A stretch of DNA of 64,000 bases from Buchnera aphidicola (Rhopalosiphum maidis) (lineage in GTDB: Bacteria; Pseudomonadota; Gammaproteobacteria; Enterobacterales; Enterobacteriaceae). A program made the translations under genes and the position numbers. The notes below the pieces were generated by a model, which ran no database searches, had not been told where the DNA came from, and was given only the letters and a program-made list of their open reading frames with translations. The stretch is from the NCBI RefSeq assembly GCF_003671935.1, contig NZ_CP032759.1, positions 434,001-498,000 of the forward strand, read 5' to 3'. This document shows positions 11,632 through 60,598 of the stretch, one piece after another (the first letter of the stretch is position 1; every line of letters begins with the position of its first letter).

Positions 11632-13073
11632 TTAAACCTTTTGTTTTTTAGAATTTAATTGAGCTTTATTGTATACTAATAATGCTTTTTCTTTACTATT
11701 TCTATAGTCTATAATTGGTTCTGGATAATTTATTTTACAGTGATTTTTTGTTGACCATTCGTACGGATTATGAATATAGTGATCTGGTATACAATTTAAT
11801 TCTGGAATATATTTACGTATAAATAAACCTGATTTATCAAATTTTTTAGATTGATTTAAGGGATTAAAAAAACGTATATATGGTGCTGAATCACTTCCTA
11901 TTGAAGCTGACCATTGCCATCCACCATTATTTAATGCAAAATCCCCGTCAATTAAATTAGACATAAAATATTTTTCCCCCTTTCTCCAATTAATTAAAAG
12001 ATTTTTTACTAAAAAACTAGACGTAATCATTCTTAATCTGTTATGCATCCAACCGGTTTGATTTAATTGTCTCATTCCCGCATCTACTATAGGAAAACCT
12101 GTATTTCCATTTTTCCAAGCGTTAAAATAATTTGTATTATTTTCCCAGTTAATTTTTTCCTCCCACGTCAATAATGATTTAGACTTACTAAGTATTGGAA
12201 AACCAATTAATAAATGATAGTAAAATTCACGCCATATTATTTCATTTAACCAATCTGAATTTAAAATAATATTTAATGGAATTCTTTTATATTGTTTTAA
12301 AACTATTTTTAAGCAATATCGTGGTGATATTATTCCTAAAGATAAATAGGGAGACAGCATACTAGTTCCATTTAAAAACGGAAAATTTCTTTTTAAAGAA
12401 TATTTTTCCATTTTATAAATACAAAAACTTTTTAATTTTTCAATAGCTTTTTTTTCTCCAATAGGAAAAGTTTTTTGATCAAAATTAACAACTAAGTTTT
12501 CTGGAAATAATTCTAGTAATGAATAATTAAGATAAATTTTTCTTTTTTTTGGAATAGGAAAACATTCTGGAACTTTTTTTGATAAATTACATATTACTTT
12601 CTTTCTAAAAAAAGAAAAAATTTTATATGTTTTGTTGTGTGTATTTTTTATACTATCAATAGAAGTTAAGATACTATCGTGAAATCCTTTTACAACAACA
12701 CCTTTTTCAGACAGTTTTTTTTTACTAGGCAATCGCGATTTCTTTCATTTATTTCATATTGATAATTATAAAACAAACTACTTATCTTTTTTTTTTCGCA
12801 GAAATAAATTAAATAATCTATTGAACTTAAAAAATTAGGACATTCGTGATAATGTAAAATAATATTTAATTTTAATAATTCTTTTTTTAAATTTATTAAA
12901 TTTTGGTAGATAAATGATATTTTTTTTGAAGAAAGAAAATGATCTTTCCATTGTTTTGGTGTTGCAATAAACAAACCAGTAACTTGATCTACGTCAAACA
13001 TACAAGCGTGATGTAAAGCAGTATTATCGTATAAACGAAGATCAGTTCGAAACCAAATTAAATTTTTTTTCAT
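11632..13073 (-). pseudogene. phrB: deoxyribodipyrimidine photolyase, frameshifted at a poly(A) tract
   Basis: The photolyase repairs cyclobutane pyrimidine dimers with light. The gene is split into two overlapping frames. 13073-12690 encodes the N-terminal antenna domain (NLIWFRTDLRLYDN, FYNYQYEINERNRD). 12732-11632 encodes the rest, including the FAD-binding WMHNRLRMITSSFLVK and NNGGWQWSAS motifs. Both parts align without a gap to E. coli PhrB (472 residues). The break is at nine consecutive A's of the coding strand (12715-12723). One more A, or two fewer, joins the frames to about 480 residues with sequence (VKKKLSEKGVVVKGFHDS) matching the family. All other visible motifs are intact, so the decay is recent, the product is rescued by slippage, or the base count is wrong. 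Typed as a pseudogene with that reservation. Confidence 0.75.
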
Positions 13074-28761: not shown

Positions 28762-30038
28762 TTATTTGTTAAAAATTTTTTTAATTTTTAATATTAATTC
28801 ACTTTTTGAAAAAAAATATTCTTTTCCCTTTTTTAAATCTTTTAATAAAAAACAATTATTGCTTATTTCATTTGTACCTATTAATATCGCAATATGAGCT
28901 AAAGAATCTACGGCATTTTTTATTTTTTTTGAAAGACTACAAGTTAAAAAATCTACAAATATTTTTAATTTAGGATATATATTTCTTATTTCTTCTGATA
29001 ATTTTATTGCATATATTTTATTTGTTTCTCCTATAAAAATAATATAAATATTAATTTCTTCTTCTTTAAAAGAAATAATATTTAATGATTTTATTAATAA
29101 AACCAAACGTTCAATACCTATTGCAAATCCTATGGCAGATGTTTTATTTCCACCTAGTTCTTCAACTAAAGAATCATATCTCCCACCAGCACAAATAGTA
29201 TTTTGGGATCCTATTTGATCTGTTTTCCATTCAAATACAGTACTATTATAATAATCTAAACCACGTACTAAATTTGGGTTATGTATATATTTTATTCCAT
29301 ATAAATCCATCATATTACATAAACTGTTAAAATGATGAATTGAAGCAGAATTAATATAGTTTTTTAATAATGGAGCTTTTTTTAGAATTTTCTGTAGAAT
29401 AGTATTTTTAGAGTCTAAAATTCTAAACGGATTAGTATATAAACGTTTTTGAGAATCTTCATCTAAAAAACTTTTATATTTTTCAAGAAATAGAACTAAT
29501 TCTTTTTGATATTTAACACGATCTAATTTGGAACCAATTGAATTAATTTCTAATTTTACATGATTATCAATAGATAAACTTTTCCATAAACGATTTATTA
29601 ATAAAATAATTTCTAAGTCAATATCTGGTGTATTCAATCCAAAAACTTCAACACCTAATTGATAAAATTGACGATATCGACCTTTTTGTGGTCTTTCATA
29701 TCTAAACATAGGACCTAAATACCAAAATCTTTTTTTTTTTTTAATAATAAATTATTTTCTATAATAGCACGTACACAACCTACAGTTCCTTCAGGACGTA
29801 AGGTTAAACTATTTCCTTTTCTATCTTTAAAAGAATACATTTCTTTTTCAACTACATCAGTTACATTTCCAATAGCTCTTTGAAAGATTTTAGTTTTTTC
29901 TAATATAGGTAGTCTAATTTCTTCATAACAATAACTATTTAATGTTTTTTTAACGATATTTTCTATTTTTTTCCAAATTTTTAATTCTTCAGGAAGATAA
30001 TCATGCATTCCTCTTACTAGATTAATTTTTTTATTCAC
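28762..30038 (-). CDS. hisS: histidyl-tRNA synthetase, frameshifted at a 13-A tract
   Basis: HisS charges tRNA-His and is needed for translation. Two frames together make one full protein. 30038-29715 gives the first 107 codons ([11 protein letters not shown], then class-II motif 2 start RPEGT). 29709 to 28762 continues from the second part of motif 2 ([24 protein letters not shown]), through the histidine-binding [14 protein letters not shown] and [12 protein letters not shown], to the C-terminal anticodon-binding domain. They meet at 13 A's of the coding strand (T's at 29730-29742). One extra A (or two fewer) restores [10 protein letters not shown] in frame and gives about 425 residues, against 424 in E. 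coli. No other defect is visible. The gene is probably functional, by slippage or because the tract length is miscalled. Confidence 0.9.
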
Positions 30039-59666: not shown

Positions 59667-60598
59667 ATGCGTAATATACTAACTATTTTTTTATTAATTA
59701 GCACTTTTTTAACCGGTATACTTTGGATAAAGTATCGAATTCCATTAATTAAAAATTATTTTTATGAAAAAAAAAAAAAAATAACATATTTTTAATAGAC
59801 AAAATAGTTTTAGAAAACAAAAAATGTTTTTTCCGGTCTTTATCATCTTTTTTCCCAATATTTTTTATTGTTTTGATAGTACGTTCGTTTATTTACGAAC
59901 CTTTTCAGATACCTTCAGGTTCGATGATGCCAACGCTTTTGATAGGAGATTTTATTTTAGTAGAAAAATTTGCATATGGGATTAAAGAACCAATTACAAA
60001 TAAAACTCTTATTCAAATAAATTCACCCCATCGTGGTGATATTGTAGTTTTTAAACATCCTAAAAATAATATTGATTATATTAAACGTGTAATAGGATTA
60101 CCGGGAGATAAAATTCAATATGATATTAATACAAAAAAATTAAAAATTTGTGTTGATTATGTTAACCAAAAAAACTGTAAAAATAAGCTTTTTATTAAAT
60201 ATTCTAAAACGGAATTAAGTAATTTTTTTCAAAAAATATATCTTTTTAATGAAAATAAAATAGGAAAAGAAAAAGTATACAATTCTATTTATTTTAAAAA
60301 AGTTCAAGAGAAAATGAGTAATTTAAAACATTATATACTAATATTAGACGGAATTAAAAGTGAAAGAAACGATTATTATCGTCAATTAGGTATGCCTAAA
60401 TTGGTATGGATAGTTCCTAAAAATAAGTATTTTATGATGGGAGATAATCGTGACAATAGCTTAGATAGTCGCTATTGGGGATTCGTACCTGAAAAAAATT
60501 TATTAGGAAAAGCTATAACAATATGGATGAGTTTTGAAAAAAAAGAAAATGAATGGCCAACAGGTATACGTATCAACAGAATCGGCAACATATATTAA
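59667..60598 (+). CDS. lepB: signal peptidase I, frameshifted at a 15-A tract
   Basis: LepB cleaves Sec and Tat signal peptides and is essential in E. coli. The ATG at 59667 opens a frame with the first transmembrane helix (MRNILTIFLLISTFLTGILW) that ends at 59795. The rest, from DKIVLENKK, the second membrane segment and VRSFIYEPFQIPSGSM onward, is in another frame up to 60598. The switch is at 15 A's (59767-59781). One extra A, or two fewer, joins the parts into about 310 residues (E. coli 324). The catalytic serine is in PSGSMMPTLL (about 86) and the lysine in DYIKRVIGLPGD (about 140). MMGDNRDNSLDSRYWG is intact. Both halves look constrained, so this is probably functional. Between lepA and rnc, as in E. 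coli. Confidence 0.88.

Follow-up and report, generated by a model that had tools for sequence, protein, structure and literature searches.

The gene for histidyl-tRNA synthetase (hisS) of Buchnera aphidicola (Rhopalosiphum maidis) is read in two pieces: its frame breaks at a run of 13 A's, and both halves are otherwise intact. This raises the question of whether the chromosome carries a frameshift in an indispensable gene and, if so, how the full-length enzyme (HisRS) is made. The window analyzed is a stretch of 64,000 nucleotides (positions 434,001 to 498,000 of contig NZ_CP032759.1) from a genome called G000 here, which consists of one contig (C1) of 642,929 bp, and it was compared with the other Buchnera genomes in a set of 36. 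The observations described below suggest that the hisS frameshift is probably real and that it is tolerated by means of slippage at the poly(A) tract.

Direct reading of the coding (minus) strand confirms the layout described by an earlier, sequence-only reading: 13 A's, flanked by TTATTATT and GATTTTGG, separate an N-terminal frame, which runs into a wrong-frame stop four codons past the tract and ends with the tail KKKKDFGI, from a second frame that continues the aligned protein (Table 1). The C-terminal ORF begins with MFRYERPQ, is in another frame than the N-terminal ORF, and its frame is open back through the tract, for 329 aa. The stop codon TAG of the first frame is 5 nt from the downstream ATG (29709). 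When the hisS orthologues of G001, G009 and G023 are aligned to the window, their residues 1-105 follow one frame and residues 106-417 the next, and these alignments reveal no frame break in the gene beyond the one at the A tract. Both halves are 89-90% identical to the proteins of G001 and G009.

Table 1. Positions of the split genes and their A tracts (window positions, except for the last row, which is numbered on the genome contig)
Feature	Position	Strand	Basis
13-A tract, junction of the two hisS frames	29730..29742 (29742-29730 on the coding strand)	-	sequence read
hisS N-terminal half, 107 aa, GTG start at 30038	29715..30038	-	ORF list; TIGR00442 positions 2-96
hisS C-terminal half, 315 aa, internal ATG at 29709	28762..29709	-	ORF list; TIGR00442 positions 94-401, 338.5 bits
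lepB (signal peptidase I), split like hisS	59667..60595	+	alignment to orthologues, genus survey
15-A tract at the lepB junction	59767..59781	+	tract list
murE, murF, murD, murC (locus L229)	G000:C1:533490-542434		names by pea aphid cluster order and size; murF by model

The two pieces jointly cover positions 2-401 of the 406 in the NCBIfam hisS model TIGR00442, and the C-terminal piece alone scores above the cut-off of the family (338.5 against 286.75 bits). The profile search found no second hisS in G000, the three remaining matches being weak (at most 36 bits). The gene is thus a single-copy hisS with one frame break in a long homopolymer and the rest intact. The tract lies in a loop, the length and lysine content of which vary among the relatives, so that the enzyme should tolerate the gain or loss of one lysine there. 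The run of 13 is the longest at this place among the 36 genomes, the others having at most 10 A's.

Across the genus, hisS is a single match in 34 of the 36 genomes; the remaining two, G000 and G005, have it split, which makes a split exceptional for this gene, beyond chance. In one of the 34, G026 (locus L090), a stop lies inside the match and the C-terminus is about 19 residues shorter than in most genomes. The hisS of G005 breaks at A10 in the same loop as that of G000. Its halves look identical, by eye, to the proteins P0123 and P0044, the contig of which is 619,772 bp long (G005 has 619,238 bp), and P0044 is also present in the Logan source. A third split is represented by P0122 and P0004, found on Logan contigs of 4,816 bp that are presumed to be one and the same; its N-terminal half ends with RKKKNFGI. 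In a tree of 41 C-half proteins, rooted with one non-Buchnera locus from a contig scan (none of the 80 loci listed in the scan is from Buchnera), the three split genes fall apart. Three changes are needed, and well-supported branches force all three. The splits thus seem to have arisen three times independently, with each known from a single lineage, and not once in a common ancestor.

The part of hisS that lies out of frame shows no decay. With G023 as the outgroup, the C-half has 9 unique changes in G000 and 10 in G001, and the comparison of G000 with G009 gives 10 and 11. The dN/dS ratio is 0.16 for G000 paired with either G001 or G009 and is slightly lower, 0.12, for the intact pair G001/G009; measured to G023 it is 0.26 for G000 and 0.25 for the intact G001. 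In G005 the count is raised against G029 (24 vs 14) and is even against G014 (16 vs 15). The count for P0004 (19 vs 13) was not used, as it includes five X placeholders. Purifying selection is therefore seen on the out-of-frame part, with the proviso that a very recent frameshift would look alike. The C-half appears to be under no clear relaxation, and no decay is to be expected anyway if the frameshift is young.

Two other genes give a longer record of such breaks. The glmM gene has a match in 33 of the 36 genomes and is split in 13, all of them inside a supported clade of 17 rows in the C-half tree (the C-part group was formed without G022). At its junction, nine genomes of the Aphis clade all have exactly A9, which is off by one, and none has the in-frame A10. 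G001, G009 and G023 have A11, which shifts the frame in the opposite direction; in G000 an extra T comes after the A11 (locus L178, G000:C1:355776-357106; other loci L192-L203); and G030, with A10, is in frame. Both parts are conserved in the split genomes, and the dN/dS of the N-part (31 codons) is 0.17 in the nine Aphis-clade genomes and 0.36 in eight in-frame genomes. The lepB gene is likewise split in 13 of the 36 genomes, where the open frames are short; in the remaining 23 they reach at least 313. Its parts meet at A9-A12 in 12 other Buchnera genomes and at A15 in the window. The dN/dS of the lepB N-part is 0.36 both in the nine Aphis-clade genomes and in five in-frame genomes (G030 was not used), of which only the Aphis-clade value is relied on. 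To judge from these distributions, frame breaks last in this Buchnera lineage.

The most serious challenge to a real frameshift is an assembly or base-calling error, in which the chromosome would have an in-frame number of A's and the hisS tract would be miscounted. PacBio-based assembly is prone to undercalling homopolymers. The published assembly was made from PacBio reads with Canu and polished with Arrow and Pilon, according to the available text of PMC6451198, which gives SRP164762 as the public reads of the project; in another Buchnera project poly-A-rich regions were hard to sequence and had low coverage (PMC3890641). There are 36 tracts of at least 11 A's in G000, and the tract list places six of them at gene junctions (miaA, bioH, rimM, glmM, hisS and lepB). 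Among the clearly genic tracts of at least 12 A's, three of four are out of frame (miaA A12, hisS A13 and lepB A15; one A12 is in frame), a count without two longer tracts, A16 and A18, each close to the end of a further gene. The same list has thirteen tracts (twelve A11 and one A12) in frame inside long open frames, which speaks against a general miscount. A suspicious case is thrS (locus L121, around genome position 4,390, minus strand), which is in one piece in 35 of the 36 genomes and lacks one base in G000 alone, at A4/T3 and away from any long run (BLAST against G001, G009 and G023); a protein search found nearest proteins that are 89% identical. Slippage hardly explains a break outside a long run, and some indels in the assembly may thus be errors. 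The thrS break is either an error or a break beyond repair by slippage. The number of split genes, on the other hand, gives no sign of an excess of frameshifts in the G000 assembly: 4 of 187 genes in a 200-kb sample and 2 of 58 in the window are split in G000 against G001, and the reverse count for the same regions is 5 of 183 and 2 of 57. This comparison, in which genes are named by size and sequence, largely misses genes that, like glmM, are broken in the two genomes alike. A separate contig of 1,194 bp encodes an identical 107-aa N-terminal half of hisS with the same tail KKKKDFGI and hence must share the broken frame. It would have 13 A's provided that its DNA is the same as the window's in all other respects; the contig may share the reads of the assembly or stem from RNA. 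Splits of hisS are also found in the two other lineages, the sequences of which were taken from JGI and Logan. An assembly error alone is less likely than a real frameshift and is, on balance, a rather unlikely explanation. The sequence-only reading had left the choice between a miscall and slippage open. The identical N-half contig, the two other split lineages, the C-half without clear relaxation and the clade-wide splits now tilt it towards a real frameshift, and thrS keeps the artefact alive.

If the 13 A's are real, the enzyme might be supplied in ways other than slippage. Buchnera cells hold many genome copies, a host holds many such cells, and long A tracts mutate fast; the consensus of 13 A's could conceal a standing minority of in-frame chromosomes that supplies HisRS. 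Single-base indel polymorphisms are described within two Buchnera samples (PMC3164680). The out-of-frame A9 shared by the glmM genes of nine Aphis-clade genomes fits poorly with such a mixture, as a mixed tract should drift, and the explanation is quite improbable. The enzyme might also be made as two polypeptides that assemble, the ribosome stopping at the TAG and restarting at the ATG at 29709. The short distance between the two codons would favor coupled restart, and gene calls place the start of P0004 and P0044, two other C-half proteins, at this Met too. This geometry is not conserved, however, because the N frame of G005 (a 127-aa protein) runs past that ATG by about 50 nt; moreover, the split would lose the RFWYLGP stretch, which presumably lies ahead of motif 2. 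A two-piece enzyme is accordingly very improbable. Finally, hisS might be dead and the activity imported from the host or provided by another enzyme. No evidence that supports this was found, and both the lack of a second hisS-like gene above 36 bits in G000 and the C-half without decay count against it, so that it is scarcely credible.

The slippage explanation can be described as follows. The only hisS of G000 would carry a one-nucleotide frameshift in an A13 tract that codes for a lysine-rich, length-variable loop of the enzyme. RNA polymerase would stutter on the A13 template, and a fraction of the mRNAs would gain one A, or lose two, and thereby return to frame. The pool of hisS transcripts would then be mixed, with an in-frame fraction sufficient for full-length HisRS still to be made. 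Slippage of the ribosome by -1 at the same run of A's may contribute. Some HisRS output would be lost through the frameshift, which might be kept by drift or because it holds expression down.

The literature agrees with the sequence-only reading that poly(A) frameshifts are rescued by slippage in insect endosymbionts. Rescue by transcriptional slippage is known in Buchnera (PMC5009743, PMC3164680, PMC3017870, each in its available text) and also in Blochmannia; the review PMC5009743 gives 12-50% corrected transcripts for frameshifted endosymbiont genes, and PMC3164680 reports correction for the Buchnera of R. padi, the symbiont of a congener. In PMC5574713 homopolymeric runs account for 151 of 157 insertions during Buchnera transcription, which become more frequent as the runs get longer. 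The same paper, which the sequence-only reading had omitted, counts against rescue, as its available text states that transcriptome-wide no Buchnera transcription error restored a frame. For similar Buchnera genes PMC7245037 assumes ribosomal frameshifting, as far as its available text goes.

Split genes are not confined to hisS, glmM and lepB. The murF gene, which is said to be one of the slippage-rescued Buchnera genes of Tamas et al. 2008, has a match in 35 genomes and is in two pieces in 29 of them. In G000 the genes taken for murC, murD, murE and murF have one break each, near A10, A7/T8, A9 and A10, respectively, and both halves of each are kept; in G009 murD is intact, unlike murC, murE and murF. 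The presence of these genes as two halves bears on a published puzzle. According to the available text of PMC9116674, cell walls are labelled in the Buchnera of R. maidis, frameshifted genes were removed from the gene sets, murF, murC and/or murE are listed as missing in Aphidini, and other adaptations are proposed for cell walls without those genes. Slippage rescue of the split mur genes would be a simple explanation for the cell walls of R. maidis Buchnera.

Other breaks lie elsewhere in the genome. The miaA (A12), bioH (A11) and rimM (A11) genes are split at A tracts (G000:C1 174957, 196622 and 344263), and genes that resemble queC (A7) and recB (A8) and one of the size of carB (A10), all named by size or sequence, are split relative to G001 at about G000:C1 250390, 279500 and 281075. 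In the window, a photolyase-like gene (11635-13073, named by eye) is split near A9 in comparison with a 480-aa ORF of G009, and a cmk-like gene (395-870, also named by eye) has an eroded look and changes frame when compared with G023. Whether the breaks share a direction was considered as a sign of rescue. The six usable breaks of G000 (carB-, recB- and queC-like, lepB, hisS and photolyase-like) are all one base short, and so are the four mur breaks; the miaA and bioH frames change in the other direction, and glmM was left out of the count because the query itself is out of frame. This sign was dropped, since all nine junctions in seven broken genes of G001 also lack one base. The common direction looks like a deletion bias and lends no support to rescue.

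These breaks have a bearing on gene counts. Each of six Aphidinae Buchnera genomes has 8-18 homopolymeric frameshifts, and 529-559 protein genes are listed for six Aphidinae Buchnera (available text of PMC3164680); 602 are predicted for the symbiont of R. maidis (available text of PMC6451198). The difference fits split genes having been counted twice, which is only suggestive, as the annotation methods differ. Should slippage rescue prove general, reduced genomes would contain many working genes among their 'pseudogenes', and gene counts would need correcting.

It is also conceivable, as a tentative and rather doubtful proposal, that out-of-frame poly(A) tracts in essential Buchnera genes have been selected as a standing, leaky expression switch. 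The murF, glmM, lepB and hisS genes would each lose their frame in more than one lineage and keep that state thereafter, and the rate of RNA polymerase slippage would set the enzyme dose. The supply of charged histidine tRNA would, if such a switch exists, be tied to transcriptional stutter at hisS.

The literature search found no report of a frameshift in Buchnera hisS. It likewise found none for Buchnera glmM, the matching frameshift in the available text being one in Caulobacter. As far as searched, three findings are new: the gene affected (hisS), its splitting three times in the same loop, and the states of glmM and lepB that extend over a clade.

Three known systems can be compared with the split hisS. 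The dnaX gene of E. coli is expressed by programmed -1 ribosomal frameshifting. As in dnaX, a -1 slip of tRNA-Lys on the A run of hisS is conceivable and would yield the same protein. Unlike dnaX, hisS shows by eye no Shine-Dalgarno-like stimulator upstream of the tract, nor is the RNA downstream of it exceptionally stable: the fold of 95 nt has an energy of -18.3 kcal/mol and a z score of -1.37, and 20 of 200 shuffles are as good. A programmed frameshift of the dnaX type is therefore not supported at hisS.

In Blochmannia ancient frameshifts are maintained (Wernegreen et al. 2010, cited in PMC3017870), and the available text of PMC3017870 names dnaX, dnaG and pth as essential frameshifted genes and reports no unusual acceleration in the four genes tested. 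The glmM and lepB genes of Buchnera resemble these in that out-of-frame tracts are conserved across species without decay of the gene, whereas hisS differs in having three apparently separate splits instead of one shared event.

The closest likeness is to the slippage-rescued genes of Buchnera itself. These share with hisS the genus, a lone indel within a long run of A's in a gene that is intact elsewhere, and recurrence in several lineages, as is seen for murF. The difference lies in the kind of gene and in the kind of evidence: the cell-wall genes might be dispensable, and hisS, read here in DNA, encodes an aminoacyl-tRNA synthetase, for which we know of no bypass. Because such an enzyme is indispensable, a genuine frameshift in hisS would be a sharper test of slippage rescue than the cell-wall genes.
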